Assembly (NCBI RefSeq): GCF_026151205.1
Contig: NC_087072.1
Location: 16,757,669 to 16,817,668 of the forward strand
Length of the DNA stretch: 60,000 nucleotides
Source of the DNA: Bolinopsis microptera
Taxonomy: Eukaryota; Ctenophora; Tentaculata; Lobata; Bolinopsidae
Direction of reading: 5' to 3'
Shown here piece after piece: positions 2,069 to 54,500 of this stretch. Made by a program: the position numbers and the translations under genes. The notes under the pieces are model-generated. The model did not search any database. It saw only the letters and a program-made list of their open reading frames with translations, and was not told the origin of the DNA. Numbering within the stretch: position 1 is the first letter of the stretch; every line of letters starts with the position of its first letter.

Positions 2069-3221
2069 CTATAACTATTGTAATGGCGTTAATTCACAAT
2101 TACTATCACAGATAACTCTCCTCATTACAGCGGTACAAGCTGTACACAAAGAACAGCTCAAAGACACTCAGGCGATGGTATCTTGTGTTGTTACTGGCTT
2201 GACAGAGGCACTGGAGACAGATCAGGTGAAGTGGACGACATTTGAAGATGCGCCCATAACTACCGGATCAGATGGTTTTACAATTGAAACTAGTAGCTTG
2301 ACTGGTAATACCCAGACTACCACTTTGACTGTCCCTGGTAGTCAGACCGACACAGATAAGGTTTACAAGTGTGTTATCACGCCCACTGGAGATGATGTCA
2401 CGGCAAAGACTACAGAAGTCAATTTAAAAGTTTTCAGTAAGTAATTCAGCTATTATACGATGATATTTCATGTAAGAGCTGTTTGTAGAATTTAGATTCG
2501 TGATTCGATTTTATGATTGGATATAATTCGTTTGGATCTTTTCTTCTTTCTCAACATCATTTCATAACAAGAACTAAATATTTCAGCTGTCAGTTCAACA
2601 CCCGAGTCTGTCACCACTGATACCGACCAGACCTTAACTTGTACTATCGGAGATCTAGACGCCAATCAAGCTGTTACAGTGACTTGGAAGGAACCTGGTG
2701 ATGGAGCATTAATTATAAACTCAGATAATACCAACTACGTATTGATTCCAGGAACAGTTGATGGCGAGGGTATTCAGAACGCACAACTAACCATCAAACA
2801 AGCCAAAATGGCAGGTTATGCCGACCAAACATCCTTCACTTACAAGTGCTCTGTGACGTCATCACAGTATTCAGACTCCCCCTCATCTGTCGAACAAGTT
2901 GTTGTGGCTAACGTCGTTGAAAAGGAAATAGGTACTTCCTTCTGAACGTATACTATCATAGTGTGGGTATTATAATAGTATAATAGGCCTTACCTAATGC
3001 TCTAATAAGGTTACCTAATGAGCTCACATTACAACTCACCTATTGGACAATCGATGAATCATTTTATTAATAAATTAGACTAGCCCCTAACAAACTGAAA
3101 CCATTCAGATGAGGGTGGCGATAACGCGGCAGTGATAGCGGCTTCGGTGGTGGGAGGAGTGGTTTTTGTGGCTGGGGCTGGAGCAGTTGCAGTCCTTGTC
3201 TACAAGAAGTTTTGTTTGTGA
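1..3221 (+). CDS. Ig-like type I membrane receptor, 5' end missing
   Basis: Exons read: 1-97 (partial), 237-545, 697-1044, 1184-1492, 1644-1991, 2131-2436, 2587-2931, then a TM exon from 3109. All Ig exons are phase 1-1 and alternate between two types. Type A (about 102 aa) shows VSCVITGL, VEW and YKCII; type B (about 115 aa) shows LTCTI, VTWK and YKCSVTS. These are the Cys-Trp-Cys landmarks of Ig domains. The last exon encodes DEGGD, then a Gly/Ala/Val-rich helix and YKKFC. It either stops at TGA 3219-3221 or splices at 3217 (GTGAGT) to an unseen or very short tail exon. The signal peptide and first domains lie left of the window. Likely a surface recognition or adhesion protein, paralogous to the gene at 8782-12584. 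The Ig call is confident; the function is inference. Exons 237-545/697-1044 and 1184-1492/1644-1991 are identical. Confidence 0.8.
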
Positions 3222-3376
3222 GTACAAATATAAACCATTTATCGAACAAAGTTTTATTTGTGAGTACGAATATATACTATTTATCAAACAAATAACATCT
3301 TTTGAAACACATAATTATTTGAATTTACAAAAACACACTTCAGTCCCCCTAATTTTATTGACTGTCAAGTTTTTTG

Positions 3377-3382
3377 AATAAA
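3377..3382 (+). promoter_or_regulatory. candidate polyadenylation signal
   Basis: AATAAA lies about 155 bases past the TGA of the first Ig gene. On the opposite strand an AATAAA (TTTATT on +, near 3354) lies past the GPR155 stop. The two convergent genes probably overlap at their 3' UTRs. The stretch 3222-3515 also holds a two-copy ~43-bp direct repeat (near 3210-3300) that duplicates the GTGAGTAC donor-like site. Confidence 0.4.
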
Positions 3383-3515
3383 ATCGGATTTCGTGACAAT
3401 TTAATTTGTGATGGTTTAAAAGATAATATCACACGGCAATGACATTTAAACCCTAGCGGACCTATAAGGGTCTACGCAGACTTTACTGTTCAAAATCAAA
3501 TTCTCAGTATTGAAA

Positions 3516-5978
3516 TCAGAACCAGTCAGGCATAGATCGAGCGTTTCTATTGACGCGAAACTCTTCTGTGAGTTCACCGGAGCTATCATTCACACTTCTA
3601 CTTCTTGCTGCACTAGCTGGAATATCTCTAGCAAAACGGTAAAGATAGCTCCTATCGTAGAATGATCTCCTCTTGTCAATATGTTCCATGACTCTACCTA
3701 GAACCAGTTTAGAACCATATTCCACCGCAACCGTCCTATCCTCCGCAAGACCAACGTTAATCAGCCAGGAAACTAGATCTTCGCCCGTAAAAACGTCCTC
3801 GTAAGACCGCCCGAACGTGCCCTGGACTGATTGACTGATAGCACTGATACAGGCGGCCATGTGGTACTGGATAAACCTCTGACAGGTGAGCACCGTTTCT
3901 GGGGCCAGGGCTTCAAGTTTAGGCAGACTTAACTCTTCTTCTTTCAGCACACAGCGCACCATCGCCTCTTTTATCATGATCATTTTCTCTCGAATTTCCG
4001 CTATAGGTGTACCAAATACAGCGGCCATAAATATAGCAGCGAATAGCCAAATATTTTGGTAGAGAAGTACCAGACCCACGAAGGTCTTGCTGCCTTTGGC
4101 CTTCTCAAAGATGCCCCAAACTTCTACAAGTATGGTGACCATTGCCATGATAACAGAGATGAAGCCGATGACTTGGAACTTGCTAACCTCTCTTTCTGAT
4201 ACTTCCCATGGATTGCTCTCGCTAGCGTGACTGATACTTCTCCCCATCTTGTTGTTGTGGAAATCCCTCATTCCGGTAGAAAAATCGCTAGTTTCCTCCA
4301 TAGGCTCATACATGACCCGGTTGTGTTCTCTTCTCACAGCTCGAGATCTACAGTATCCAACAAACTTTGGGACCAGAGTCATACCAATGGCGATGATGAG
4401 GATCACTACTTTTGTGAGGACAAACTCAGTGCTAATGTTGTTGCTGTAATCCCAGATGTAGTTATGTGGCTCTATGGGGTGTTTCAACTCAAAAGGTAAG
4501 GACGTGAGAGCAAGCAAGGCTACAGGCAGGATTACGCACAAGCAGATGAACCAAACAGCAACTCGTTTTGTGAAAAATGCTCCGAACATGTTCCCTCGAT
4601 CGGCTAGTCCTAAGATGAACGGATAAGCTGAGCCTAAGAGGCAAAATAAACAAGATGCAACAGCTTTTCCAAATGCAATCATCTTAGCCTCTGCTTTTCC
4701 GACTTGATTAACCATGACACTTCCAATCAGTGCATTGTAGGTCAGCAGACAAAGGACTTGCCCGATCAGAAAATGATACATGAACCTCCTATAGCGGCCC
4801 AGGAACACCAGGACGAGGAGCAGCCAGATAGCCAGACCGACTCCCGAGTACCCTATACCTTCAGTCAGATTCTTAACCAAGGTGGTGGTTTCATCGCTGA
4901 ACAACTGGCACCATGAAACATAGTACAGGGACATGAACAGGGTGCTGACAGGAGCAAAGCTGAGAGTGGTAGCTAGCACTATCATAGCGAATGTGGGTGT
5001 CAGTAAGTCGTACTGACTGGCGAATATGACGACAATGGGGGAGGATGGCAAGGTTCCGTAGAGGTAGAACATGATGGAGAGACTTTCAGAGGCTCCTTTG
5101 TCTGCTGGGATGATTAGTTGAGTCAATTTCATCATGAGAGGAGATATTCCTAGTTTAATGATGGTGATAACCACAATAGCCATGATCTGCCTAGGACTGG
5201 TAAAGTGCTTGACACTCCCGACCAGCACCAGCCCTGTGTACAGTAAATATATGGGAGGTATTGTTGTAGCCAGGCTTTTGAGAACCCCGTCCCCAAACCA
5301 CTTGAAGAATGCTGTAGAATGTCCCACTCCCATGAGCCGCAGAATAAGTCCCAAAACTGCAGCTAAGACTGGAGGTCGAAGAAGAGATCGCATGAGAGCG
5401 CAGAGAATACTTTTACCCCAAGTAAGGGACAGCTCTCTGTTTCTCCGCAGCTCCAAGAAGAAGATTGTTATAGGAGCGTAGGTTGCGTAGGTCAGTACCA
5501 TGGAGTCTTCCATGTAAGATGGGTAATCTTTGGAACCCGGGTATGTAGAATTATCAAACAGTGCATGAAGCAGCTGTTGACCAATAGCATAGTCATTGGA
5601 ATGAACAGTGGCTAGAGCAAACAGGAACACAGCTGCCCAGCTAACAGACGACTTCCTGACCAGGATAAGTCCGACAGAGATTACAGCGGTGTAGAGGATA
5701 GACTTCACTATGATGATCCCGTAGAGGAAGTTGGGGAGGGTTTCGTGACGATCAGTGCTGGTAACCTGGACAGTGAGCACATTGTATAGGATACCAGCTG
5801 GCAGGGCTATGTTGAAGATGTAGGACGCTAGAACGGGCCTCCCTCTCCCTGTTGGGAGCACGTTGAATCTTCCCGCTAGGTATCCCAAAGAGATGAAGGT
5901 GAAGATGGTCACGAAGATAGGAAAAAATTTGCCAGCAAGTTCAGCCAGTAGGTGTGAATAGTCTTCGTTCCCTTCCAT
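3516..5978 (-). CDS. GPR155: GPR155/LYCHOS-like lysosomal cholesterol sensor
   Basis: One uninterrupted 820-aa frame. The start is ATG 5978; the open frame upstream begins only with TTG after an in-frame stop. Order: N-terminal PIN-like transporter half with about ten membrane segments, including SNDYAIG in the place of the conserved SNDFALG; a second multi-TM GPCR-like block; then a C-terminal DEP domain (about residues 690-790; FTGEDLVSWLINVGLAEDR, YLYRFA). Human GPR155 (LYCHOS) senses lysosomal cholesterol and feeds mTORC1 through GATOR1; that role is transferred by homology. Length is close to the human protein (870 aa). It is oddly intronless among intron-rich neighbours, and convergent with the Ig gene at its 3' side. 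Symbol given by family resemblance. Confidence 0.88.
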   Translation of the reverse strand: MEGNEDYSHLLAELAGKFFPIFVTIFTFISLGYLAGRFNVLPTGRGRPVLASYIFNIALPAGILYNVLTVQVTSTDRHETLPNFLYGIIIVKSILYTAVISVGLILVRKSSVSWAAVFLFALATVHSNDYAIGQQLLHALFDNSTYPGSKDYPSYMEDSMVLTYATYAPITIFFLELRRNRELSLTWGKSILCALMRSLLRPPVLAAVLGLILRLMGVGHSTAFFKWFGDGVLKSLATTIPPIYLLYTGLVLVGSVKHFTSPRQIMAIVVITIIKLGISPLMMKLTQLIIPADKGASESLSIMFYLYGTLPSSPIVVIFASQYDLLTPTFAMIVLATTLSFAPVSTLFMSLYYVSWCQLFSDETTTLVKNLTEGIGYSGVGLAIWLLLVLVFLGRYRRFMYHFLIGQVLCLLTYNALIGSVMVNQVGKAEAKMIAFGKAVASCLFCLLGSAYPFILGLADRGNMFGAFFTKRVAVWFICLCVILPVALLALTSLPFELKHPIEPHNYIWDYSNNISTEFVLTKVVILIIAIGMTLVPKFVGYCRSRAVRREHNRVMYEPMEETSDFSTGMRDFHNNKMGRSISHASESNPWEVSEREVSKFQVIGFISVIMAMVTILVEVWGIFEKAKGSKTFVGLVLLYQNIWLFAAIFMAAVFGTPIAEIREKMIMIKEAMVRCVLKEEELSLPKLEALAPETVLTCQRFIQYHMAACISAISQSVQGTFGRSYEDVFTGEDLVSWLINVGLAEDRTVAVEYGSKLVLGRVMEHIDKRRSFYDRSYLYRFARDIPASAARSRSVNDSSGELTEEFRVNRNARSMPDWF

Positions 5979-8781
5979 TTCTTTAAGATACAAACGAAGT
6001 TAGTTATAGCACTGTTAATTATTGGAGTTTGTCACAGTCTTGTTGGAACACTAAATTGTCCTGACACTGCACATGCAACTCAAACTTGGGTAAATTGTAG
6101 TTTTACAAAATGTACTTAAAGATTTAAAGAGTTAAAGTGTTGATGAAATATTTTGCTCTCGGAAGAAACGTTCGAAAGTAAACCGGCTAAAGAATCTGAT
6201 TAAACACGAACTTAAATGCAGTGCAATTTGAGTAGGTCTCTAGGCTACTGAATTTTAAGACTCGTGCGGGTTCTAACTTTAGAATGGCGTGTACATCATT
6301 GATTTGGTGTTGAATTTCCGATAAGACATATCTGCCCGAAATAGAGATAGTTTAACCATGATGACCTTATATTTAATACTATATTGATAAGACTGTGGTA
6401 CTATTACGAATTGTACATGATTAAGTCCTCTATTATTACAAATTGTGTACTCATCAGCATAATTGAACTTTTTGTAAAGCGTAGGGTTCCAGTTCAAAAC
6501 CGCCCGTTTCTCTTTCAATATTGATTAATGCTGAGCAGAAAATTGAATATGAAGTTATTCTGAAAATAATATGAAATGACCACGTCTTGATGATCATGTT
6601 ACTGTAAGAAAACACCGAATATCATCTCAGCGGTATATCTCGTGACATATTTTCTTTAATAAAATATTTCAAGATTGTAAAACAAATAACGAAAACCCGG
6701 TCATTTATTCTACCAAAAGGTTAAAAGAGCTCTGCATTCTAAACTTATTAACACCTCTACTCAGGTCGGCAGCAGTAGCAGCAGCAGCGGCACCACCAGT
6801 GTAGAACACAGCTTTAGGAGAGGGAGCAAAAAACAATACAGGCATACAGCGCAGACATTCATCAGGACTTCAAAAGTAACATTAATAACAATAAAGCTTT
6901 GGTGCAACTGGCATACATTGCAGACGACTAGGAACATTCTAACATTGCAAAAATTGTAAAAGCAGTTTAACTGTCAATCTGCAATCTGCATTAGATGTAC
7001 TATACACTCATGCGCAGTAGTAGCTGGAAAATCTAGCAAAATGTTTCCAAGTAGCCACCCTCCCCACCCACACCCCCAAGTAGTTTAGATAGGCTTACCT
7101 ACGCGTGTCTCCAAGTATATCTACTCAATCAGAAAAATAGAGACATCTTGTTTTTGAACATTTCAGAAGCTAAGATAATGCGGTTTTTTAGGTAGTCTAT
7201 TATATAATATATTCCAGTAGAAGAGATGTGTAGCGTATTCTTGTAGTTGTTGGTTTTAATGTATCGTTCAGAATTTTGTACATCAATAGATCTGTATATT
7301 TGAAAACCTTTAAAATGAACAATGAAGACATCACAAGTATTATTTTTCAAATTAAATTTGTTTTTGAAACGCTGAAGCTTCAATATTGACGTTAAATAGT
7401 TTTACTTGCAGTCAGTTTTATCATTTTATTAAAACTGTATTGAATTTGGTGATCATAAAGTTATGTTTCCGAGAACGGTTCAAAGTGACGACGGTTAGAA
7501 TGGGTTTTATTGGGGCTTTTGAGAAGTTACCGCAACAAAATGGACAGAATGGGAGAAAACTGCTTGAATTATATGTTCTTTCACATTTAAAATTATTTCT
7601 GATCAAATCTCATGAGCTATGATACTTATCTTATAAAATATCTAAATTTAATCACGACGTCACGACGTGGTGTTTTCAAATTTTCTCTATAAGAACAACA
7701 CCAAACGAGGCTGATTTAAGATGGTAGAGGTTATTTTAATATCGTTAAGTTTTATAAAATCAGCACTTGATTACCTAGAGTCTATTCTCTTTTACCCTAC
7801 CCTAGGACAAGCAGCTAGGCACTACTAGGCCAAGTGTTACATTTTGATAAACCACCAGATTTTCGGCGTAAAAAAGTGTGCCAATATTATGGTCAGAACT
7901 GGGTGCTTATAAAGTTATAAGTACGGGTCAATATCTAATGTTTCAGTACCAGATAGCAGTTCCTCATATTACTGGCATTTGTTCTGGGTTTGGGTTTCCT
8001 CGGCAACCAACCGTTTTAGATTAAAGTCGCCATACCTGCTATATATAATGCACTTGTTATCTCATGGGAAAAACGAGAGTTTGGCTATAATTAAATCATA
8101 GTTTAATCACCTTTTATTGGAAAACCGGTCGCTGCAGCCCAGAGTATTTTCTGCCAAATATTTAACGATATAACCTTGAATATAACCGTAACCTACGAGC
8201 GGTCCCCCTTTTAAGATTTGTCTCCTAGCCACCTTGTAGCGTTAAACTTGTTGGATCCCTTGATTCACACAGTGATTATCCACCCTCCTCACTTCCGCAG
8301 ATTATGTTGTCAAATGGTTTCCCTTTTTCTAAATGCACTCTTTATATCAATTTACAAAAATCGTAACCACTTGAAAAATGCACTCCAAAATCTACAAATG
8401 AGCTAACTATCAAATTAGCTAACTTTGTTAAAATTTAAATCAAGATAATTTTACTTTATTAATTATTTGTTTCGTAACTTTTTGTTCTCTTGATCTGTTA
8501 GATTTTTCTTTTTTCTTTCTGGCGCATGATCTTCACCTAGAAGTCAGCATTCGAGCTTCAGATATGATAATATTGCGCCTTTTTGACTTTTGCAAATTTT
8601 TGACTTTTAACCTTTTTTTTAAATTGACTGACCACGTAACTGTTATTTCAAAGTCAAACCAAATCGATGGAATAGTATTAGGAATTTGTGACAAGTAATT
8701 TGTTAATATAAATCTTTATAGGCACCTCTGAACATCTAACTTCCGGATTCTAAGTCTTGACAGACTTTTCTGACAGAAAAG
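5979..8781. other. intergenic spacer, no supported gene
   Basis: Between the divergent starts of the GPR155 homologue and the second Ig gene. Both promoters should lie here, but no clear core element was recognised. Short open frames are AT-rich and show no family resemblance. A GCA/GCT-rich stretch at about 6705-6812 could be a terminal exon on the minus strand: acceptor-like CTAAAG, Ala-rich reading, TAA at 6705-6707, ATTAAA downstream. No partner exon was found. Confidence 0.5.
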
Positions 8782-18900: not shown

Positions 18901-21900
18901 AGACCCTTGTAAGCTATAATATTTGCATTATGCACAGATAACGAGTTATTTTGTTTTTGTCCAGTGTCCACGAAAGGAAAGTGCTTGAATTGCTAACTTA
19001 CTGCAATAGCCGCTGACATCAGGACTACTGAGGGCTCTACCGGAATAAACATGAGTCCTCACTTCAAAGAAGTGTTTATCCGGGAAATTTATCAGAATTT
19101 GCGCTGGAACCTTGACCTTCTGGTTATTCAACACCATTGTGAAAGTGATCGGTCCTGAGTAGTTCAACATTTTAACAAGTAAGATATCGAGGGCATGAAA
19201 CCATAAAAACAGATGTGTTCCGGTATTTAGTTGGAGGTAATACAATTAGGTTGTAACAAGAAGATAACCATTTGTCAGAACAAAAGAAAGAAGATCTAAC
19301 CAAACTTGAAAGAGTCGAGCTGGCGGCGGTATCGTCTTCTCCTGACGATATCTGAGCCCATCTCTCCGCTGTGGAACTTAGTTGTGAACATTTTAGCGTA
19401 CTCCCAGCCACCTGTCTTCTCAACACTCTCCTAAGGGACGTTTTTTATCAATTTGGCAAAAAGGAGCCTAGAATAACTACAATATCATTGTTCTTACGTT
19501 GTAATTGCATATTCGAAGATATGATTAAAAACCTCTCATGTTAAATCTTACTTGTATAGTCAGAACTCTACTAGCACCAACTTTCACTCTGCTCCGTAGC
19601 CATAGTCTTCTCCGACACAGGTGATATGACTTGGCACTTGAACAGTAATCGCTAGAGTCGGGGTCCAATGCGTATTGGTATCCTGTGATTGAGCACAACT
19701 TTATTTACTTTCAATTAATTTCAACGATGATCGAATGTGAACCAACGTTGATTGATTAAGTCATTCCCGAAAGCTACAAATATCACTATCAAGGAACCCC
19801 AGCGGGGAGAAGAGGAACCCCAGCGGGAAGAAGAGGAACCCCAGCGGGAAGAAGAGGAACCCCAGCGGGGAGAAGACGAACCCCAGCGGGGAGAAGAGGA
19901 CCCCAGCGGGGAGGAGAGGACCCCCAGCGGGGAGAAGAGGAACCCCAGCGGGGAGAAGAGGACCCCAGCGGGGAGAAGAGGACCCCAGCGGGGAGAAAAG
20001 GAACCCCAGCGGGGAGAAGAGGAACCCCAGCGGGGAGAAGAGCAACCCCAGCGGGGAAAAGAGGAACCCCAGCGGGGAGAAGAGGAACCCCAGCGGGGAG
20101 AAGAGGAATCCCAGCGGGGAGAAGAGGAATCCCAGCGGGGAGGAGAGGAACCCCAGCGGGGAGAAGAAAAACCCCAGTGGGGAGAAGAGGAACCCCAGCG
20201 GGGAGAAGAGGAACCACAGCGGGGAGAAAAGGAACCCCAGCGGGAGAAGATGAACCCCAGCGGGGAGGATGTTTTTAACGTACCTTCCACGTCCCCAGGT
20301 GACATGGTGTCCACATGCCAGTCTACTGTTACCTCCCATCCCTCAGGGTTCTCAACTTCATCTCGCGGTATTGTCAGCTCCATTCTCTGGAAAGTTCGGA
20401 TGATGAAATGGTTTTATTGATGGACAATAAATAATTATTTCCTTACCTTGAGCTACCACGCGAATGAAATTTGTCACGTTTTCCGACCCTATGAACAAAC
20501 TCCTACTAAAGGCACTTATATATATATTACACTGAGAGGTATTTTGGATTTAGATTTATGAATACTCAATGATGTCAAAGACTAACCGAATTCATCCAGA
20601 AGAGTAAAGGATTAGACCAGTCGTCCCCGATCTCAATAGTCTGTACCTCGAACACTTCGTCTGTGTAAGAGTTCAGACCAAAATCTTCACCCACGATGGA
20701 ACTGAAGAGTGTAAACAACAAATTGTTAATGTTTAGGTAATGTTTTAATAATGAAATTATAAGATCTCATCACTTAAAGTGGATGTAAATTTCAAACGAG
20801 CAACTGAAGCCTCTAGCCTCTTCTCACCTGAAGTCTGGAGTGACAGCCCATTCACTGACCCAGAACCAGCCATTGGGAGGTTCGAAGTTTATCTTGGGGA
20901 GAGCTAGCAGACCATTTACATCAGAGAATCCAGGTCTCTGGAGGCCCTTACTCGTCCAGTTACCTGCACCCATAACTGCTTGATTCTCATACTGAGGAAG
21001 GTACCATCAGAACCAGTTCGACACTTGAAGTGAGTAACAACCGCAAGTAACTTAATATTGGCTTCTGAAAGCCCTGATAAATTATCAAAATGCAAATACT
21101 CTAAAGTTAGACTGACGGTTTCTGCAAAGGCAGTGTAGGTGCCACCGTAAGGTACCCGCCACTTGTAGTACTGGTCTAGGGAACCAAACCAAATGTAACA
21201 CTTCATGAGAGTAGCAATGGAGGAACCGTCCCCTCCGACGTACTGATGGAACAACATTGATTTATGGCTTACTTGAAGACGAGATATCGTTATTTTGATA
21301 AATGTCGAGGGGAAATAACACCAACTCCAGTCAAGGGTTTCACAGATACTTACAGGGCTGACGAACATTAAAAATTATATATTGATCAACCAACATAACA
21401 CATAACAACAAGGTAACATTATGCATACACTCTAACACTCTAACACTCTAACAGTACCTGGAAGGGGATGTGTCTGGTTGAGCCGCTGAATTTCCCTTTA
21501 GCCACATTAGACTCAAGGAACCAATGTATGGGAGCCTTGTAGTATCCGATCTTAATATTTTTCATTATCATCCATATAACGACGTCAGGAATGTCAGTTT
21601 GGGGCTCCTCGCAAATAACACCAACTGTATAATGTTCAGGTTAAATCAAACATACGTGATACAGTGAAACCGTGAGCTATCTAATGTAAAAGATTGATTG
21701 GTCTTCATTTTCACCCTGACGTAAACCAAAACCTAAATCATATCTCTTAGACGACGACAAGACTCACTAGAGTCTAGACTGGCAACAGCCGGGAAACGAC
21801 AAAATGGGGCAAAAGATCGACCGGGCTGTTATATTGTCCCAAAAGAGGTTATAAAATGTAAACACCTTTCTCCAAAGCAAGAAGCATTTCATTGTAAAAG

Positions 21901-33563: not shown

Positions 33564-36500
33564 TCATTTTATAATTTGATAATTGACAAGGAATTCTGGA
33601 TACGCCTGTTCGCCTCTGTAGACCACGTACTCAGGGTAGTGTAATCCTCCCGTGGACGGTTTTCCAATAACAGAATGATGTCCAGGAGGAGCGTGAGCCA
33701 TCTTCACGGCGCTAAACTGCATGAAGGGCTTACCCAATGCAACACGGCACACTAGCATTTGTCTGTGACACACGTAGCAGCTGCGATCTCTGTGTAAAGT
33801 ACAACCGGACCCACCCCCAATGCCATACACGTACTGGTTACTTTTGCTAGAATGCTCTGCAAAATAAAGTCCTGCACCAAACATACCACCAATATAGGCG
33901 TGCCTTTCGTCAAATCCTTTCCACACTATAGCATTGATAAACGGAGAGCCGTGAAACAGCATGCGCTCGTTGGGACACCCATTAGCGGCCGCTATCTCGC
34001 TACGTCTATAAGAGTAACGGGACCAAATTCTGCTGTTGATGATACGCTGTATTGATATGATCTTGTAAGATCTGTAAATCCCACCAGCAGCCCCCCTATC
34101 AGAGTGGTCCTTAATAGAGCCCTGCATTTCAAGGCACACTGATATGTAATCCTTATCTGTCATGGGAAGATCCACCAGATCAGGATAATCTGAACTAAGA
34201 GATGAGCCCTGGAAAGGGTTGTCTCCGGGGACAGGTCCCTTAGCGGTCGCTACTTGGTAGTCCTTTATACCCTTCAATATCCTGTGTCTCTGGCCGTATG
34301 TTGATATTCCTATGTTCTTCAGATCATCGTGTGACATTTCTAATAATAAATCTAGAGTAACATCCTCCTTGCTGAACATTTCCAGGACGTGAGGCATACT
34401 GATCTTCTCTAAAAACACGTCAATGGTGATGTTTTCCATGGTGTTAACGGGTTCAATGAACGCCTCTCCCAGTCCAGGGTGCAGAGGTAACATGCCGCCG
34501 ATATGGGGAGGAGGAGTAATGGGGCTGAGCCCTGATACAGGTAACATAGCGGGGGGCATTGCGTCCATTAGTAACGACCTCACATCAGCTGCTCCAGCCA
34601 GTTCTAGTGGGGTCTCATTGTTCTGGTTTTGTAGCACGGGGTCTGCGCCGTGCAGGATCAGCAGAGAACAGAGTTGTGTGCGACCTTTCTGTGCTGCTTC
34701 GTGGAGTGGCGTGAAGCCCCATCTGTCCATAGCGTTAACATTAGCGCTGTACTTTATCATGAGCGCCGCTATCTCGACATGACCATAGCTAGCCGCGTTG
34801 TGTAGCGGTATCAAGCCTCCCTTGTCTTGAGAATTAACGTCAGCACCATGCTCCAGCAATATCTCCGCTATTTCTAACTGATTGTAACCTGCAGCTAAAT
34901 GGAGTGGACTTGAGTTTCTACCATTGTTATCACGACAGTTCACGTTTGTTGTGTTGATTACTTTCAGGATTCTGGGAACCTCTCCCTTACGTGAAGCCTC
35001 AAGCAGGGCCTCGTCGCCGCGCAACAAATCAGATATGTCCTCATCCTCTTCCTTTACCAAATCTAATGGAGTTTTACCGTCTCTATTCTTCTTATTTGGG
35101 TCTGCTCGGTGCTTCAAAAGGAGCTTACAGATATCGTACTTGCCTTTAGCTGCTGCTTCATGTAGTGGGGTAAACTTCCATAGATCACTGACATTGACAC
35201 TGGCTCCGTGCTTGATGAGTAACTCCACAACCTCCAAGTGCCCATACGAACACGCGTTGTGCAGCGGCACTAATCCGCCCTTATCTTTAGCGTGGACATT
35301 AGCGCCCAAACTGAGGAGCAGCTCGACCACATCTACCCTGTTGTAGCCAGCAGCAAAGTGTATGGGAGTGGAGTGTCTCCCTTGCAGGTCCTGACAGTTA
35401 CAGTTCACTCTGTTGCCCACACTTTTCAGTGTTTCAATGTCCCCGGTTTTTGCTGCTTCCAACATTCTCAGTTCCTCCTCCGTGTTCTCGGATATGACAG
35501 CTGGTTTCTCCATTTCTCTGATCACTGCTAGAACCGACTCTGTAGCTAGATCTGTGGAAGGTGAGCCGTTGTTGCAGAGTAGCGTTACATCGGAACCATG
35601 TGAGAGTAGCAGGCGCGCTGCTTCCACGAATCCTTGTGCTGCGGCACGATGCATTGGGGTCAGTCCACTTTCGTCTTGACAGTTCACCTGAATAAGGAGA
35701 GGTTAATTATCAAATATCAACTGAGTATAATCACTAATCAGCCAATAAGCAAGTAGCCACATCATGACGCGAAAACAATATCGAATGACGCATCACAACA
35801 TTATCTAACTCAATCTCATTATTCTAAAAGGTTATTGAAACACCACAATGGACACTGACCTTGGCCCCGTGTCGGAGCAATATGTTCATAACGTCCAAGT
35901 TATTGGTTTCAGTGGCCTTGTGGAGCGCAGTGGCACCCTCCTTGTTCGTCATGTTCACGTCAGCTCCCTTCTTTATCAGTAGTTCCACCACACTTTTACT
36001 CTTGGTAGTGGCTGTAATGAGATGATATGTTAGTATTGTAGATAAACTATGTTGTAAAGTAGAATCGTTAGAATTCTAAAACGGCTGAGTGGTGAGTTAA
36101 TAGCCTGGTGCTATCAGACCAGACACAGTTGTGCAGCTGCAGTGTCGTGTGATAAATTAAAACGATACATTTTTTGTCCGCAGTTCCTCGTCTAGTCCAA
36201 GAGCATTGAGTTAACGATACGAATATTTCTCATCACGACGAAGGATATTAATATTTCCACTCATCACATGACAGAGCATCCGGAGATCGCTAACTAAAAC
36301 TTATTAAAAGGTCTATCGTTATATTGAAATTGTGATAAAATCACTGCTTTACAATTTGTTAGAATGATATCATATTTCTAGACATGAGTCTCAAAACAAA
36401 ATTTAGAACTATGCGAGGTATTTAGGAATCCGGATTTGTACGCTACAATACGTACTATCAGCACTTCTTCTCGTCCATCATTAATCTAAGGATAAACATA

Positions 36501-39500: not shown

Positions 39501-42500
39501 CAGACACACACACAGACACACACACATTCTGGTGTTATTAAGTTGATACTATATGCAGAATGACAGTGAAAGGGTTGGTACCGGTTATGGATATAATACC
39601 TCGCCATTATCTTAGCATAAATGGACCGCATCTCAGTTAGATGTTGATCCTAAATACTACTATTATCTTCTTTTGGTAAAACTTTCAAATCAAATCAAAT
39701 CATGTAGTTCACAAGGATATGTGATATATCATATTATGGCAGTATCGAGATAGCCCGACCACTGGTCCGCGGACCACTGTCCGCGGACCACTGTCTGCTG
39801 ACCACTGTCTGCGGACCACTGTCCGCGGACCACTGTCTACCAGATCATATTACTGTATAATAACAGTATCCCCTGAATCAAGCAGGGTTCACATCATCCC
39901 CTGAATCAAGCAGGGTTCACATCATAGCACGCGAATTCCAATCAGCGGTGGTGTCAAGGCTTATTAAACGATTAAGCAACCTTACGAGATCAGTTCGCAT
40001 CATGCAATATATAAAGAATAACTATTATCAGACTGCATCAATCATTTCTATCATCAACTCCAGGAATTGGAATAGTTGTTGTTGTTGATGATGGCAACTG
40101 ATAATACTTCACCAAAAACGAACGACTTATATACCACATTTTAATCGTAATCATTTATTTCATTGAGCAATCAATATTATTCGTAACTAATTATATCCGA
40201 GAGACCACATTTGAACCGTAATCAATAGTTTGATCCAGTAATTTACTACGCTACAATTAATTATGCTAGTCGTAACTAATTGCATCCAAGATACCATACA
40301 TACCATTCATATGATCTGGTAACCAATCAACTATTCACAAACACCTGTTGCTTGATTCAGGGGATACTGTTATTATACAGTAATATGATCTGGTAGACAG
40401 TGGTCCGCAGACAGTGGTCCGCAGACAGTGGTCCGCGGACAGTGGTCCGCGGACCAGTGGTCGGGCTATCTCGATACTGCCCATATTATACCCAATATAT
40501 AAGCTTATATTTCACACGGCAGCCTCTTACAAAACATATGCTTGTTAGTAAAGAGCCCCGTTTAAGTTTTAATATTAAGGTTTAGTGCTTGAAATATTGT
40601 ATTATTAGCCGGATAAGAAATATTTTCTAGTTTGTAAGATCTTCAGAATTTTACAAATGATGGAGTTGTTCACTGCTCGATCGGAGGCTACATTCTTGAA
40701 CTGGGTAGTCTTTTATTCAGCTGCCGATTATTTTAATTGTAACATTAAAAACAGGTTATATAATCGGGGTCGGGGCTACTTTCAGCCATTCGGGGCTACT
40801 TTCAGGTGCTAAGTACGATTTTCTTCCATTAGCACTGCTAATGGAAGAAAAAATACTGGACCATAATAGATGGCCAACAGTTAGGCCCCACAATTATTGT
40901 ATTAATTTCTTGGAAACCTGTTTTTACCTGTTAGTGTTGTGACAGTGAAACCAATTAACGAATGGGGAGAACCTAGGTCCTAGCAAGCTGAGGGTCGAGG
41001 TTCTCCTAATGAGGCACGAGTATAAATACAGACTCCACGGCAGCGACTGCACAGTCCACTGCTCAGTGCTACACAATGAGAGCCGCATAGTTTGGAGGCT
41101 GACAGCTTCCTTTAGCCCAGCCGGGATTTGGACCAACTACGTCAGAGCCAGTAGGCAGACGGAATAGCGTACTAACCGACTGAGCCACTGCCATTCAATT
41201 TCGCTAATGCAGTTTAATTATATTGCTATAGGTGGGCAAGGTTCGACCGGGATCCCGGCTTAATCCCGCCCCGGGATATATACTCCATTCTACTTCATTC
41301 TAGTATATTATATACTAGAATGAAGTATAATGGAACCCGAGAAAGATAATAAGAATGATATGGGAGGTCGCTGATCTCTGTCTCATCTCAGTCCAGTTTT
41401 ACTTCCACTCTATTTAATGGTGTATAGTAAGCCTCAAAGAAATAGTTCACTGAGTAAAGTTACTCACCTTGTACATCGAATAATGGATTCTAATAGTGGA
41501 ATTCTGCTGTTTTTACTTCTGACTAAGTTTTCCGGTCGGCGGCCCCATATTTTCATTTTGTGGTACGAACGAATGATTTTTGTTGGCTTTGGTAGTCGTA
41601 CCACTAAACACCAGCGTGCAAACTGTCGACTAATCTATTTATAGATTCTGTAGAAAATAGAAAACGAACTGAAATAAAACTCTAACATGTACTTGATACA
41701 TTTATAAACATATCAAGTACATATTGTTAGAGTTTTATTTCAGCTAATTTTCGATTTTCTATACCATTACCAGGTGCCTGGTTCAGTCATTAATCAGCCT
41801 TGGGTGCTACAAACCAAATCAGACATGATCCTTGAAATTTAAATCAAATTTAGTAGCGTGTTACCTCAGGTATCTGTTTTACAAAACAACCTAATTCATC
41901 AACTTACTTTATTTTTGTTACTGTTTATAGAAAGTTGTCGCACAATTCACGGCCCCTCGTTTTAAATGTTTCTCTAGGCTGTTCTTATAGGCTATCGTGA
42001 TGTACAATGTGGAGATTTGCTTGTACAATGTGGAGATTTGCTTGTACAATGTGGAGATTTGCTTGTACAATGTGGAGATTTGCTTGTACAATGTAGAGAT
42101 TTGCTTGTACAATGTGGAGATTTGCTTGTACAATGTGGAGATTTGCTTGTACAATGTAGAGATTTGCTTGTACAATGTAGAGATTTGCTTGTACAATGTA
42201 GAGATTTGCTTGTACTTCTGCAGGCTGCAGCACAGGTGTAAGCGAATTTCCGGTGCAGATTTGTTTGATGAATTTAATGAATAATTCAATAGATAAATAA
42301 CAGAACAATGAGCAAAATGGTGAACAATTAAAATGGACACAGTATCCAAAATAAAACCGAGTGTTGCCATGTAATTCGGTTGAGTACACCTAAAGATCTA
42401 AAGAGTAAAGATGCAATCCATTGAAAAACTTAAAATTAATATTAACAATGAAGTAATACAAGTAATAACTTAAAAGCAATGTATTAACCTGAAGCTGCAA

Positions 42501-45500: not shown

Positions 45501-48500
45501 TAACATCCACATTTCATTGCATTAGTAAATAGCTATTGATTCCAGCTGCCTAGCAGAACAACTCTAGTCGATTCTAATTTTAGCCGAAAACCTAATCCTG
45601 AAGGATTTACAATATTCAGGGGTTTCTCGGTCATTATTAGAACGTTTTAATACTTTGTCAGCAGCACTAGTAGTGGTCTACAATCTAAGAATGGTCCGAC
45701 TAAACAATCGTAGAAAATAAGAACAAAGGAGTTTTATGAGATGGGTCACATTTTCTCATAGGAGCCGCATATAATCGGAATGTCATTGATTTATAAATTG
45801 AAGGTTAGAATGCACAAGGAAGTTTAGAAAATATAAATATTCATTTCTAAACTTACATGTGCTAACTGTGCACTCTTTTAGTCTTTTATCGTGTTAAACT
45901 CTAATTTATTTGAAGTTAAGACAGCTGTATCGGGACATTGACAATACTAATAATTAAATAACTTAACCAAGTTCCACAATAACCTCACCAAGTAGCCCCC
46001 TAGGTAAAATGGCGATTATAAACGAGGACGGGTTGGCGAGTGGGTGTGTGATGATTCTGATAAACGGAGTGGCTCTGGTCCTGAATATCTCGGTCCTGAC
46101 AAACCTGGTGATCAACAGGAGATCACTGCCACCCTACATGTGGCTAGTGTTTAATCTCACTGCTGCTGATACTATCTTCGCTTTTCTAGGTAAGTGAGAT
46201 GAGTGAAGTAAGTACTTCCTGTATTTGAGACGGTGGAAACAATACTGATAAAATGACAACACTGAGCTGCTTACAATATCAAGTTGAATCCTCTAAAAAA
46301 CCAGCAACAAACCCCACTGCACACCACCAGGTCTAACAATACGCGGTCCTGGAATGATATACTCTGACTACTACACGTCCAGTGAAGCTGGTAAAGTGTG
46401 CTGTATCTTCTTCTTCTACGCTGTCTACCCCACCATCTCTGTTAACTTTAACACTTACATCTTACTGGTGCTCAACCAGTTCCTCGTCATCAGACGACCC
46501 TTACAGTACGGTACACAGGTACTAATCTCTATTATAATGCTGTCATTAGTTGGTTTTGTAATCATGTTCAGTGTTCACCTGCTATTATGAATATGGTTTG
46601 CACAAATTCAAATTGATCATCAATGCCATTCCTGCCTTAGAATTATAACCCTAAAGCCCCTGTAAAATATATCAAATGCTGGTCTCAAACCGTTCTCGAG
46701 TTATTATCACTGATCACATGTGGGCCTTGGGGAACACCCTGTACTTAACATTGTGTTCAGTAGACAATGAACTCGTTATAACACACAGAGTACAAGTGAG
46801 AGGAGGAAGAGGAAGATACTGCTAGCAATAGCGGGAACCTGGGGTGTAGCAGTTGGCTACCTCATCATCTACCTTCTTCTAGTGCACACTGGTGTTGGTA
46901 CGTCTCTTTTTATCTTGATTTCAGGGATTGGCATGTGAGGGAATTGAGGTTTAACTAGAAAATCCTCGCGTACCACATTTGTAATTCCTGTTTGATTGTT
47001 TTAAATGTTTATGTTTAGAGTAAACTCTAAAATACCCCTCAGAAACGGTCTCCAGTCTCCAGTCTGACACCCTATCCTCCAGGTACCTCTGAGTACGATG
47101 TAAAGATGAGTCGGTGTTCCCTGACCAACACACAACAAGGTAAGGTAGCTCACATGATCCTATCAACAATCTTCGTTATCATCCCCTCCTTCACTTGTCT
47201 CGGTCTCTACATTGGTATTGTAGTCATCCTCTTCAAGAACAAGAAGAGGGACACAGGAGGTGTAACTAACCACGCCTTCATCACCATCACCATCCTCCTG
47301 GCTCTCTTCTACCTCTCCCACTGGCCTTCAGTCCTGCTCCGAGACATCCCCCGGCTGTTCCAGACCAAGATAAAACTCCCCACCTCTCTGAACATAGCCA
47401 CCTCTGTGTTCTACTACCTAAACGGTCTCACTGACCCTGTCATATACGGGTACCGGAGCAAATACCTCTTCACCCGAGCTAAGAGACAGATCGGGCTGAC
47501 CTTCTCACGAGACAGCACAGGAGTAAGCAACAAGCTGAGGAGTCAGAGTCCGTCAGGGAGCCACCGTGATGTTAGTAATGTGGAGAGGAGCAGGGTGGAG
47601 AGCAGCAAGGGAATCTCTCTTGCTAACATTAACACTAGTGCCGGTGAGGTTTAGAAGAGCGGAGCTGGAGGTTACTCTTATTTCGAACTTTAGATTGTCA
47701 ATTTGAGTCGAGTATTATTAAGGAAACTGTGTGCTATGTAACCTATTGTAGTGGATAGTACGTGGCGGCCTTGTGGTCAGTCTGCTCGGATTATTAACGT
47801 AACCCTGCTATAAGGCTAGACATACCGTATAAGGAATAATTGCCATGTGACTCCAGAAACCTATTATCTATATTATGCGAACACTATTTAATATCTTATA
47901 AACGTTAGGACATCATTTTAATATAATAAAGGCCAAGGGAAGCTAGGGTAGCTGTAAATTTTAATTGTTTATTGTAACCAATATGATATAGAAATATTCA
48001 CTTAAACATAATAACTGAATTAATGTTAATTGTACAGCTTTAAATGTAAATTTCCTTGTATTGGTACTTTTTGCTCACTAGTATCCTTAAATCGATCTCT
48101 AACTGACTTTGGGTTTTTTTACATGGCACAGCCAATAATTTATTTGTCGTGTATGTATGTTGTATGTATGACGTGCAAATTTGTTGATAAATTGTTGTTT
48201 TATTTTAACTTTTGTATATGATAGTATAACTGTGCGAGACAGTGCAGTTATAACTTGATTAAGATTATTTGAGAAATTGAATTGTTTACTGCATCAGCGA
48301 TTACGCTGTTTTTAATCTCGAGTGCATCCTGAATTATAATCTACTCAATAATTGTGATAGCAATGTGCGTGTTTTTGTTTGTTTGTAACTTGCAATTTAC
48401 TAACCACTTAAGGGGGCAGGGGGTCTTTATATTAAATTTCTCTCGAAATTGATTTTATAGTTGTTTCTGATAGAGGGGAGTGATATCTATCTGCTGCTTT

Positions 48501-51500
48501 TAATCCCATGGAAAAATATTGTTCCTAGCCGAAATTATTGCCCGTCAAAGGTCAGCGCTCATGTGTAATTGTATTGCGCGAGCGATTTTCAATCGTGCGC
48601 CCTGAAAATCGAGTCTAAAAATCTATCTGGGCACTTTCAAAAACATCTGTCACCGAAAAAATGTTAAAATTTGCCAAAAATCAGTTTTTGTGGCATAATT
48701 TGGTGGATAATTTTTGGAACGAGATGAAACTCCAGGATATGGTGTGCTATACCCTAACCTTTACTATCTGCCACTTTTTGTTTCGATTTAGGGCTAAATC
48801 TGGTGGATAAAAGTGAAACAGACCAATCCACTTCAGGTGGCCTTTAAAAATATTTAATTCCATCTAAACTCCTAAAATATGATTGAGACTTAACAATAAT
48901 CGTTATAACTTCATAATTTCATAAGTAGGGCCGGGATTTTTCTTAAGGGCCAAATTTGGTGGATATATTTTTTTACCTCTTTTTTAAGACTGTTATTTGT
49001 TAGCTAACATCAATTTACTGGTCTTAAAATGATGCAAAGGCAATGTTTAATCTATGGCATCAACTATGAAGTACCAGATTTAAGTTAAAAGGCTATTTTT
49101 GGTGGATATAAGTCAATATTAATTAGTTAAACACGTAAATGTTACCAAAATATCAATAAATAAGACATCATCATGATTAGAAACAGTTGAAAAAGATGAA
49201 ATATAAGATGTTGAACATTTATGCAAAAGGTACACTATGGCATTTTAAGCATTCAGGGCCAATTTGGTGGATAATTAACTCAAAAATACTTAAAATATCG
49301 ACCTGGATATTTTGATATCCATCAATTTTGGCCTTAAAAATCGGCTTGAGCTTATCACATTTTGTGCTGAACAAGAAAAAGGTCTAAACAAACCAATATC
49401 AGTGTATGATTTCATAATCGAGCAAATCTAAGGCCAGAAATAGTGGATAAAAAAGCAAATTTAACCGGTTTTAAGCTAATTTCTTAGGCATTTATCCACC
49501 AAAAACGGCCCTAAATGGAGAATGTTTGGAACGTTTACTTGAAACTATAGCCCTTCTTTTCGACCTCAGAGCAATGATTTTCAGCTCTTTCGACCTTAAG
49601 ATATAATTATTGGGCGTTGAAAGTGGATCACATACGTTATCAGTCAAGAAATCATTATTTCAATCACTGAGGTAGGTTATTCACATTTAATATCCACCAA
49701 TTTTAACCTTAAAAGTCGTCTTGGACTGAAAATTCTTTTGAACTGACTCAGCTAAGGGGATTTTCTATCTAGAAACAGTTGTAGTTTCATGATAGAACAC
49801 ATCTAGGGCCAAAAATAGTGGATACAAAAGCAAATTTTCCCGTTTTAGTACTTTTATCCACCAAAAACAGCTCTAATATAAAGGCTGAAAGGAAACAGTT
49901 TGTTAAGTTCGTATGAAACTATATCCATTCATTATGGCCCTAGAGCAATAATTGTATACATTTTCACCTTCTAGACGAGATAATTGGGGTCTAACAATGG
50001 ATAACCTGCATTATTGACTCAGAAATTGACTTAAAATTAAATCAATCTTGAAGCTCCAATATATCCACCAAAAATGGCCTAAAAATTAAATCTTCTATGC
50101 TATCATAAACTTGAAACGATTTCCAACCTGATCCGTTCACTGAGTAAAGCTGGTGAACTTGTTGACCAATATAATTTTTTCAGTTGAAAATTTTCGGTAT
50201 TGAATTTTATTTCATCGTTTTATTATCCACCATATCTAGCCTTAAAATTGAAATCTTTCTTTATTTTCGCCTTTTATCATAGAGGCATATCGATTTGCTA
50301 CAATTCTATCTTTAAATAATCACCATAAATTAACCACACGTAAAGTTACAGGCCAACAAATGATATATCCACCAAACCCCTCTGAAAAGTATATCCACCA
50401 TTATTAGCCCTGATTTAAATGCGTGTATCTCTGCTCATAGACATAGTAGACATTTTATTCTTTTTGTAAAAGTTAAACTATCGCAAATCCTATGCTGAAA
50501 AAAAGTTTAATCAAAATATTGAGTTTATCCACCAAATGAGAGCTTCCAGAAGTTGAAATTTTTCCCGTGACAGATTCGTTAACATAGTTTTTGAAAGTGC
50601 CCATCTTCTCCTACATTTTTTGAGCAATCACCTTGAAACTTTCAGGGTATCATGTTCTAAGGACCATTTGAAAGATTTCACTCGATCAGAATTTTAAGAT
50701 AGGCCTTAGAAAACTTTTTATTCCATTTTGAAAATCTTGGACCTCGTTTTTTGACGATTTTTCCAGGTCCAAGATTTTCAAAATGAAATAAAAAATTTTC
50801 TAAGGCCTATCTTAAAATTCTTATATAGTGAAATCTTCTAAATGGTCCTTAGAACATATCCTGAAAGTTTCAAGGTGATTGCTCAAAAAATATAGGAGAA
50901 GATAGATTTTTAGACTAGATTTTCAGGGCGCGCGATTAAAAATCGCTTGCGCAATACAATTACACATGAGTGCTGACCTTTGACCGGCAATCATTTCGGC
51001 TAGGAACAATATTTTTCCATGGGACCAAAAGCAGTGCAGATAGATATCATTCCCCTCTATCAGAAACAACTATAAAATCAATTTCGAGAGAAATTTCATA
51101 AAGACCTTCACTGCCCCCTTAATAAATATAACGGTAAGATTTATGATCAGCAGATAGTTGTTATCTGATCTTCTCAGCATAAAAACAAAGATCGATCACA
51201 AAAATAGCTCACCGTCCCTTGCAGCAAGCTTCGTGTATGGGAGTAAACTGCCAGAGGTCACACGCGTTCACATTAGCGCCGTGTTGTATCAGTAGTTCAG
51301 TCATCTCAAAGTGACCATAGGAGCAAGCGTTATGTAGCGGAACTAATCCTCTGTGGCACGAGGAAACTGTTGTTAGTATTCCACAATTTTACAGTATACA
51401 CCCCTTGCTGTAGGGGGTTTCCTAAAAAAGCGCGTCCTTAGTTTTTCTGAGGAGCAATTTTGGAGGGGGCGCCTAGGAAGAAAATTGTAACTTTCTTGAT

Positions 51501-54500
51501 GTGGGAATGCAGGCAATATGTAGCAGAACAAAATAACATCCCCCAGGATCTGAAGATCTACTTACCCCTTATCCTTAGCCTGAACATCAGCCCCGTATTT
51601 AAGTAGAAGCTGAACGATCCTAGTGCGGTTATACCCTGCAGCTAGGTGTAGAGGGGTACTCTTCCTCCCGTCCTCCGCATGACAGTTCACATTGAGGGGG
51701 GTAAGCAGAGCTGCTAGCTTCTCCTCGTTACCGTTCCTTGCTGCTTCCAACATCTCGTCCTTCTTGTACTCACCTGGATAAGGGCCAGTTATTATTACGG
51801 GAGTAATATTAATAATCGCATATTATGTATTATGTAATAGTCGCATATTATGTGTAATAGTCGCATATTATGTATAATAGTCGCATATTATGTAATAGTC
51901 TCATATTATGCTCTTAATTAATTAGGTTCATATTATTATTGTCATCTTCACACTAATAAGCAATAATCAGAACACAGTTGAACTTGGTAAATTAGTGACC
52001 TTTTAGCACGGATTTGCAGATAGGTTCAGCAAGATCCAGCGCAGTACTCCCTTCTGTATTCTTTATTGTCGGGTCGGCTTTGTTTTGGAGTAACACTGTA
52101 ATATGAGGCAATGTTTATCATATCATGTGCATGGTGATAAATGTGGATTGTGGGAATTTTAAATTGAAAGGTTAACAATTTCTCATAATTTCCTGGCTAA
52201 AATTAACAATTTCCTGGCTAAAATGAACAACTTTCTTTAACTTCCTGTCTAAAATGAACCATGTCCCATAACTTCCTGGCAAAGTGGGAATCCCAATTCA
52301 GTAAACTATTCGTCCGTGTTAAAAGCTGTCCGAACACATTCCTGCAGTTGCAACAATGAACAACATGTGAGTGACGAGAGTTGCCGACTAATAATGTTAA
52401 AATCCCCCCACAAAATAGCGGCTTGTCACGGGACACACAGACACGGAATCACGACAAGTACGATATGCCAGGAAAAAACACGATCGTACCAGCCCGGGAC
52501 ACTTTCGCGCCGGGATTTAAACTCAACTATGGCTTTTGGGGGCCAAGCAGATAGTTTAATATAACCGGGTATCCTAATTATAGGTCATCTTTAACTAGTT
52601 GAGCGTTTCTATTTTCAATCGGAATATTTTATATCAGGAATAACTGGGATATATTAAGATATGTTTTCTGATATATTAGGATACATATTATCAACTATCA
52701 AGGGATATATTATTAGGATATGTCATATGTCATAATATATCTAATGAAATATTGGAATGTTTTTGTCATCATTATCAATAGAGCTGGAGGTCGATAATTG
52801 GTGTTATTTTCACATAAGAACGGAATGGAATGACAGGATGACATACCAATCAATAATAAGCTTATCATAACACATTCAGACATACCAGCAGTTTTCCTGT
52901 TCATGACGTCATAAGCTTTGTTTTACGAATGGAAAAACTTTCTCAAAGTTCAGTCGACATTTTAACTAAATAATCATTTTATACTCTCAACACTATACTG
53001 CAGAACTGAAATACATGTGAATTTAGTGGACCTGAAATATATCCAAGAAAATGTGAGACGGTCTCTTGTTCATTGTTACACATAGTACAATAGGACAGGT
53101 ACTGGTGCTAGATTTGCAGGTGGTACAACTAGCTTCATCGCTAGATATCACAATATCATATTGTTTAGCACTGACAGCTTAATTTGATGACGTCATTTCT
53201 GTCAAAATAAACGGTGATAGTTAAACAGGAGCCCCACTAAGTCGTTTGATTCAGGTCACGTGATAGTGGTGTCACGTGACGTGGGAACTAAAACCACTTA
53301 CCCCTATTTAGCTTTAAAACTTAGTTAATACATAGAATATTGATAAAATTAGTTAACATCTCATACACGATGAACGTCCAATCATGTTCCTATACTATTC
53401 CTCCAATTAAATTTAGATTACTACGTTCATGGCTGCACCGGGGCAGGTTTTCCGGAGAGATGTCATAATACAGCTTTATAAAATGTTGCCCTAGCTGCAA
53501 TATTGTGAGACAAGTTAAACCATTATAATAGCAGGACTTGTAAGTGTTTAGCAGCAACCAGGGGCAAAGTTGCAACCTTGTGACAGCAATGAACCACGTA
53601 ATTTGTGTGAAGGTTAAATTGTTCCTGAGGTCGTGAACCGACAACTTATAGGTCACGTGACATCACTATCACGTGACGTATCCATGTAACCACAAAGCTC
53701 ATTACCATGGTTACGTTATATAATATGAGAGAATAATATCCTTGTGCTCACAGCGGGCTATACACCGAGATTAGATGACTTGCTTGATAATAGTGTTGTA
53801 GCTGACAGTCACATTCACCTGCCAGCAGCGTTACTTGTGTGGACACAGTATTTATATTAGTTGAGCTATGAGTGTGTGCGTGTGTTTGTAACTGAATGTT
53901 TGTGGTTGTTGTCTTTAAGTGTGTCATGTGTGTATGTGTAGAGTGTATGTGTTGCATGAGTGTAGATCTGGTGATGACTCAATACTTGCCAATACAAACA
54001 AATAAAATGTTAATTACATCAATCAACGTGGGAAATTACTATGAACATTTTAATAGTAAAAAGCTTTTATAATCTTTCCAGAAAAATGTTGGTGAGAGAA
54101 AATATAAGGCCAAATTTTGTTTGTTCCCATTTTATCAATGAACGATGGATGTTACTGGACTCCAATTTTACTCAAAATCAAGGTATAGTTTAGACGGTCT
54201 TCCAGTTGCTATGCATATATTATACATGTTATATCCTGACAACGTGGGAGTTTTGCAGCAGGTGATCTCGCAGGATGGCACTTAGAGACGTGCTTCGTGG
54301 ACAATAATAAATCATGGAGAGAACCATAGTTGCAGCTAAAGGCTCATAATTAGAGTTCACTAGCGTACTACTAGCGGTTAAACTTCATGGCTGATTTTGT
54401 CGGTAATGTTGTTATTTATAGTAACTACAAATTGATAGCAGACGTAATACCGGGGGGAGTCGTTTAATACCAGTCGTAAATCATAATTGGATACCATTAT

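Follow-up and report, generated by a model that had tools for sequence, protein, structure and literature searches.

A 60,000-nucleotide stretch of the genome of the ctenophore Bolinopsis microptera (contig NC_087072.1, positions 16,757,669 to 16,817,668 of the forward strand), here called the window, contains between positions 48408 and 51122 two transposable elements, one of which is nested in the other. An earlier note on this DNA had interpreted the region as a single 2.7-kb element with 230-bp inverted ends, between which arrays of a short motif point in opposite directions in the two halves. The mirror-polarity arrays were confirmed. The supposed single element, by contrast, consists of two: all motifs lie in a 1974-bp non-coding DNA transposon (the inner element; 48629-50602, plus strand), whereas the 230-bp inverted ends belong to an outer miniature inverted-repeat transposable element (MITE) that spans 48412-51118. 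As judged from sequence comparison, the motif is better preserved than the DNA around it, both inside the element and from copy to copy, and it is also kept in a diverged relative whose interior is different. We lean, a little beyond an even chance, towards the explanation that the arrays are transposase recognition sites and that the family is moved in trans by cut and paste.

The boundaries of the inner element were determined from homologous copies, whose BLAST alignments stop within a few bases of 48629 and 50602, and the exact ends and target duplications were read in the sequence. The left terminal inverted repeat, GGGCACTTTCAAAAAC, occupies 48629-48644 on the plus strand and its counterpart 50587-50602 on the minus strand; the target duplication ATCT stands immediately outside them at 48625-48628 and 50603-50606. 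A second block, ATCTGTCAC, is common to both ends. It follows the left repeat directly and lies 11 bp further inward at the right, a displacement of about one helical turn. Inner elements whose ends were read start and finish with GGGCACTTTC or close variants, and a 4-bp duplication, differing in sequence from place to place, was present in 17 of the 21 read, the ATCT of the window included, and absent from L012, L014, L019 and L029. Terminal inverted repeats of 16 bp together with a target duplication of fixed length place the element in the terminal-inverted-repeat order of DNA transposons. Its longest open stretch in six frames comprises 59 amino acids, which leaves it no coding capacity. 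At least 20 near-full-length continuous copies, including that of the window, were found in the 264.65 Mb of genome searched when 40 of 76 candidates were scored. Exact 15-nt termini occur at 69 places and 48 of these form 24 convergent pairs, 17 of which measure 1957-1978 bp; the remaining seven have lengths of 1408, 1413, 2023, 3384, 4007, 4192 and 4433 bp. The inner family is a non-autonomous, non-coding DNA transposon family with many dispersed copies; it is homogeneous in length but far longer than typical MITEs. Its amplification was probably recent, because seven loci (L001-L005, L013 and L022) differ from the window copy by only 0.86-1.27% substitutions.

The outer element is flanked by the target duplication TTAA (48408-48411 and 51119-51122) and is divided by the inner element into a left part at 48412-48628, the start of its left arm (inverted repeats I1 and I3), and a remaining part at 50603-51118 (inverted repeats I1-I4), which comprises the rest of the left arm (50603-50744), a 20-nt centre and the right arm (50765-51118). 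Genome copies match window 48408-48628, most of them at 93-95%. Among 46 genome matches to the end sequence described in the earlier note, none besides that of the window reaches beyond query base 221, equivalent to window 48628. Four outer copies fetched in full (L047-L050) are about 725 bp long, the length of intact copies, are flanked by TTAA and lack the motif element, and in all four the site at which the inner element is inserted is uninterrupted. The insertion-point sequence is present in each of them on both strands at mirrored positions, as expected because the arms of the outer MITE extend nearly to its centre. A genome search with the interior brings up a different family, whose members carry termini and duplications of their own, and the outer copies are uninterrupted; the left arm of the outer inverted repeat was therefore the target into which the inner element inserted. 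The outer MITE is the older of the two, and the hairpin at 50603-50903 is the remainder of its inverted repeat. A single symmetric 2.7-kb element would agree with the adjacency of inverted ends and motifs in the window. We give this interpretation practically no credence, since the motif element occurs in its other copies without those ends and is bounded there by termini and duplications of its own, while L047-L050 lack the motif element. For genome annotation this means that one seemingly large symmetric element resolves into two nested families.

The motif is bipartite and reads approximately TTTnRGGCY-n6-TGGTGGATA. Fifteen of the 16 sites were aligned, without the one furthest to the right, whose flank overruns the end by one base. 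Both halves are kept: GGC occupies -10 to -8 and TGGTGGATA extends from -1 to +7, while positions -15 to -13 form a T-rich edge. The edges are sharp; outside these positions the information is mostly at background level, with single columns of up to 0.67 bits. The exact word GGTGGATA occurs 13 times in the region 48408-51122, always within 48702-50533, and once elsewhere in the 60-kb window; 300 rounds of dinucleotide shuffling of the inner element gave a mean of 0.06 and a maximum of 2. Motif copies 1 to 5 lie on the plus strand at 48690-48709 (the first from the left end), 48790-48809, 48946-48965, 49089-49108 and 49254-49273, with GGTGGATA at 48702, 48802, 48958, 49101 and 49266, respectively. 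They are followed by eight minus-strand copies, numbers 6 to 13, at 49493-49512, 49691-49710, 49855-49874, 50062-50081, 50224-50243, 50366-50385, 50392-50411 and 50526-50545 (the first from the right end). The outermost motifs stand 61 and 57 bp from the left and right ends. A perfect split has a probability of 0.0016 under random ordering of five plus and eight minus copies, a value to be read with the partial dependence of copies that the duplication described below introduces. Three degenerate copies with one mismatch, which retain the GGC half, interleave at the centre, one on the minus strand at 49316-49335 (GATGGATA) and two on the plus strand at 49430-49449 and 49805-49824 (both AGTGGATA, at 49442 and 49817); a fourth one-mismatch word at 49296 (minus strand, GGTCGATA) lacks the GGC half and was excluded. 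The six right-pointing and eight left-pointing copies counted in the earlier note thus correspond to five exact and one degenerate plus-strand copies and eight exact minus-strand ones. In view of the degenerate copies the change of polarity, which the earlier note placed near 49470, is not sharp and extends over about 49270-49830.

With the motifs masked, the best match of the left half to the reverse-complemented right half has an E value of 0.085, so the spacers are unrelated, as the earlier note had maintained, and a decayed palindrome was rejected. By coordinates, the motif positions of the two halves are not mirrored either. The only internal similarity at E ≤0.01 in the masked element falls within an old tandem duplication at 49311-50060 (plus strand), which has a period of about 375 bp (units starting at 49311 and 49686; spacing of 375 in repeat families D3 and D4) and three motif copies per unit; in copies L001-L017 it can be aligned for about 160-340 bp, with 66-72% identity. 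Intervals between exact copies are irregular (26-227 bp, mean 152, standard deviation 50), on which ground a nucleosome-scale array was rejected. Of the two proposals made earlier for the function of the array, binding of a protein is the one that stands as the best reading.

Comparison between copies points to retention of the motif. In 13 young copies, which keep the array, only 2 of 1351 aligned cells of the motif 8-mer differ from the window copy, as against 467 of 22156 outside the motifs, and the 12-base motif flanks are intermediate (15 of 2022 changed). The substitution rate of the 8-mer is about one fourteenth of the spacer rate in young copies and 0.36-0.40 of it in divergent ones. 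In 29 divergent rows 34 of 1116 motif cells and 1378 of 17941 outside cells are changed, and none of 5000 GC-matched random placements was as low. One of these rows deserves a remark: part of the inner copy at L014 (425-1887) has 89 insertions and 19 deletions relative to the window copy and adjoins a part at 98% identity, which suggests a poorly polished patch or an assembly error. Because the left part of L014 has this appearance the test was repeated without it; in the remaining 28 rows the counts were 27 of 1012 and 1210 of 16263, with 1 of 10000 GC-matched random placements as low. Within the young set, shared variants are found at none of 104 motif sites and at 52 of 1714 others (Fisher 0.045), and singletons at 2 and 117, respectively (Fisher 0.027). 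On a parsimony tree of 25 rows with at least 790 aligned bases, L014 excluded, 8 motif changes were seen on internal branches where 15.1 were expected (6 versus 13.2 with CpG positions removed). Deleted bases in young rows number 1 in the motifs and 116 outside. The motifs of the fetched copies are, in short, more conserved than the spacers, which is the comparison that the earlier note had proposed.

The best single argument for retention of the motif rather than of the spacer is provided by the sequence of a diverged relative, L023. Its matches to the inner element cover 133-656 and the final 59 bases (those of its duplicate, L024, cover 133-599), and the 860-bp stretch between the matching parts bears three further plus-strand motifs. 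Of 35 BLAST matches of this stretch to the inner element at E ≤1, 31 are centred on motifs, the best 17 included, and the other four have E values of 0.21 or worse. Two of the three motifs have counterparts in L024; the one at 1738 has none and resembles a local copy. The pattern GGC-N6-TGGTGGATA occurs at 248 places in the genome, compared with 10 for a reversed control. Among the 100 of these places that were listed, all on contigs C1-C5, 96 lie by coordinate in or beside family copies (C1:3594194, just outside the fetched sequence beside L036, is counted with them), and the four that stand alone are C1:975692, C2:12193824, C3:16478854 and C5:14888325. The motif is nearly private to the family. 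At C10:14316659-14321525 we observed a tandem array with a period of about 99 bp, the unit of which contains TTTGGTGGATAG and which gives 22 pattern matches on the reverse strand. A separate observation concerns L023 (1930-3190) and L024, a duplicate pair on C11, in which exons resembling those of a gene lie on the minus strand close to the right terminus. The two longer exon-like pieces have no Pfam match at E ≤10, and the longer one no PDB sequence match at E ≤10; its three genome matches are all to itself and the duplicate. At the DNA level the stretch has, besides the duplicate, one 88-bp match (80%, on C12) outside the exons. It may represent a captured fragment or a decayed transposase.

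The explanation that we favour can be formulated as follows. The inner element would move by cut and paste, and the motif would be the recognition site of the DNA-binding domain of a transposase acting in trans. The conserved halves GGC and GGTGG are about 10 bp or one helical turn apart, and a single bound unit could recognise both from the same side. Since the copies at each end point inward, the transposase would load with a defined polarity relative to that end; the many sites would raise its local density and aid capture and synapsis of the two ends, and cleavage would then take place at GGGCAC. Conserved motifs amid freely drifting spacers would be found because, with the transposase supplied in trans, mobility filters only the ends and the motifs. 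Terminal repeats, a target-duplication signature and the absence of a gene, the traits of such a passenger, are all present. The role usually ascribed to repeated subterminal sites is that their avidity promotes synapsis, according to the excerpts of PMC11707139.

Several observations weigh against this explanation. The sites are spread through the whole element and not clustered at its ends, and the short elements L026, L029 and L041 carry only three, two and one exact motifs, so that the full array may not be required. Changes in the motif are depleted on terminal branches as well (11 seen, 31.6 expected; 11 versus 27.8 without CpG positions), which is a complication, because terminal changes, if purely post-insertional, should be neutral. 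Either copies move repeatedly, or sparse sampling shifts older changes to terminal branches, or the motif is maintained after insertion; selection for mobility accounts for the depletion solely on condition that copies transpose several times before being sampled. In divergent rows the motifs have no deficit of deleted bases (28 for 1116 aligned cells, versus 302 for 17941 outside), which counts against strong constraint. In Hermes, a hAT transposon discussed below, no binding to the repeats of the right end was seen in the complex of that end, and the authors judged it unlikely that auxiliary transposase bound deeper within the ends supports transposition in cells (both in the excerpts of PMC10368747). 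An autonomous element with the same ends, as called for by the earlier note, was looked for: no transposase-bearing partner was found among the 69 exact 15-nt termini, the 24 convergent pairs and a looser set of 85 places, in a search that used neither a hAT profile nor a Sola2 query and was subject to assembly gaps and its own limits. All 24 pairs enclose sequence of the inner family, some of it broken by other insertions.

Alternatively, the motif could bind a protein of the host, such as a regulator of the zinc-finger type or a protein involved in silencing or chromatin, that is recruited for expression, targeting or escape from silencing. Sites that span the whole body rather than the ends, and depletion of motif changes also on terminal branches, would suit such a factor, and we regard it as unlikely although deserving of attention: a motif so nearly confined to the family leaves few other sites for host duties, and polarity relative to the ends would require an extra explanation. 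A further proposal, which we consider improbable, is that the arrays are functionless remnants of an old inverted or tandem amplification whose spacers have diverged. One internal duplication of 375-bp period is indeed visible, and full-length copies have the array in common by descent; the dissimilarity of the masked halves, the unmirrored positions, the conservation of motifs between copies and the L023 motifs in otherwise unmatched DNA all argue against it. By analogy to piggyBat, in which a subterminal transposase site restricts activity (excerpts of PMC11707139), the motifs might restrain or regulate transposition and thus serve as a brake on copy number rather than as an aid to synapsis. 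That 17 of the 24 exact terminus pairs still have the standard length is compatible with a brake; selection for mobility would be expected to remove one, and the chances of this proposal appear just as slim as those of the remnants. If the motif is the site of a transposase, as we favour, the family would be a natural experiment on the number, spacing and polarity of sites in transposition, for which it offers numerous copies that are almost identical, subfamilies that have diverged, and short derivatives whose losses are known. The case would also suggest that selection on a mobile element without genes can be visible at its binding sites alone.

During the search for a partner, 20 loci around unusual termini were fetched. 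The four exact-terminus pairs of more than 3 kb are interrupted inner copies (L022, L013, L021 and L014), of which L022 (by Pfam) and L013 (by eye from its open reading frames) are interrupted by a reverse-transcriptase gene and L014 holds a 2.4-kb insert. The domain RVT_1 was identified by Pfam in L022, L028 and L036; L037 is a 93% DNA match to L036, and its own fragment has no Pfam match. Reverse-transcriptase genes beside or inside family copies were rejected as partners and are read as separate retroelements, because the L036 protein has 149 matches (148 of 2162 candidates scored), and a comparison of the lists by eye places none but L036 and L037 less than 1 kb from an exact terminus. The L036 gene itself (1033-3999, minus strand) belongs to this abundant family, has a weak PHD-finger match and adjoins a fragment of the motif family. 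L030 and L032 were dismissed since they have only 42 bp in common with the inner element and adjoin another repeat family. The insert in L021 was likewise rejected, being a separate element with its own inverted ends. It extends over 2 kb (L021:2001-4036), has the ends GGACCAGTTAACTG and a TTTAAA-like duplication, and is probably another DNA transposon.

Other features of the window include a 707-amino-acid, ankyrin-rich open reading frame on the minus strand (33564-35687), which presumably encodes a tankyrase-like protein, and, 16 kb upstream of it, a second minus-strand frame with ankyrin repeats by Pfam (51562-51753). The nested elements lie between the two, perhaps in an intron. An 825-amino-acid frame on the minus strand (3516-5993) encodes a multi-pass membrane protein that we take to resemble GPR155. 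Open reading frames of short tandem repeats at 19721-20420 (PQRGEEE-like) and 41918-42370 (KQISTLY) are probably minisatellites.

Foldback elements have inverted terminal repeats made of tandem short repeats. They resemble the inner element in that short repeats have opposite polarity in the two halves, and they differ from it in that the inner element has single motifs in unrelated spacers instead of tandem blocks. Among the open-licence papers listed by our literature searches we recognised none that describes the inner family, Repbase and Dfam lying beyond the scope of the comparison. The statement of the earlier note that no described family has this layout was too strong with respect to polarity, for which Hermes provides a precedent; the spread over the whole element does look unusual. 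According to the excerpts of PMC10368747, Hermes has 17 and 14 copies of a short motif at its two ends, the subterminal repeats (STR) STR2-STR7 being antisense at the left end and STR1-STR5 sense at the right, and those at the left end are bound by the BED domains of the transposase. Many copies of a short motif, opposite polarity at the two ends and an arrangement that is asymmetric between them are thus found in both elements. According to the same excerpts, Hermes integrates across an 8-bp target, its motif core is AAGT/AAGC, and its repeats are densest near the tips, with five in the outermost 55 bp on either side. The inner element, by contrast, has 4-bp duplications and an 18-20-bp bipartite motif, and its array covers about 1.8 kb at a spacing of about 150 bp. 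Hermes is a precedent for the layout of polarity and does not establish a role for inner sites. CACTA (En/Spm) elements also have subterminal repeats; in the excerpts of PMC8978399 these are closely spaced over several hundred bases, unlike those described here, and the elements have CACTA termini and 3-bp duplications in contrast to GGGCAC and 4 bp. The 4-bp duplication agrees with the 3 to 4 bp of the CACTA/Chapaev (CMC) group, but elements of this group start with CAC (excerpts of PMC4079192) and the inner elements read start with GGGCAC. TTAA, typical of piggyBac and present at the outer MITE, occurs only once (L009) among the 17 varied duplications. Sola2 resembles the inner element in AT-rich 4-bp duplications and short terminal repeats of 12-21 bp (excerpts of PMC3627910), and by hand count 57 of 68 bases of the inner duplications are A or T; by our own count, however, the AWWT target pattern of Sola2 fits only 2 of the 17, and the excerpts mention no subterminal arrays. 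No superfamily is assigned because hAT fails on the length of the duplication, CACTA/Chapaev on the termini, and Sola2 is unclear on AWWT. It is conceivable, although we think it doubtful, that the family represents a DNA transposon lineage, possibly an undescribed superfamily, with rows of 18-20-bp bipartite sites directed inward from each end, the transposase of which would read polarity along the whole 2 kb or so and form a chain covering most of its length instead of assembling at the tips. Compared with these systems the arrays represent a familiar type of feature in an extended form, in which the presence of 18-20-bp sites throughout the whole element looks unusual.

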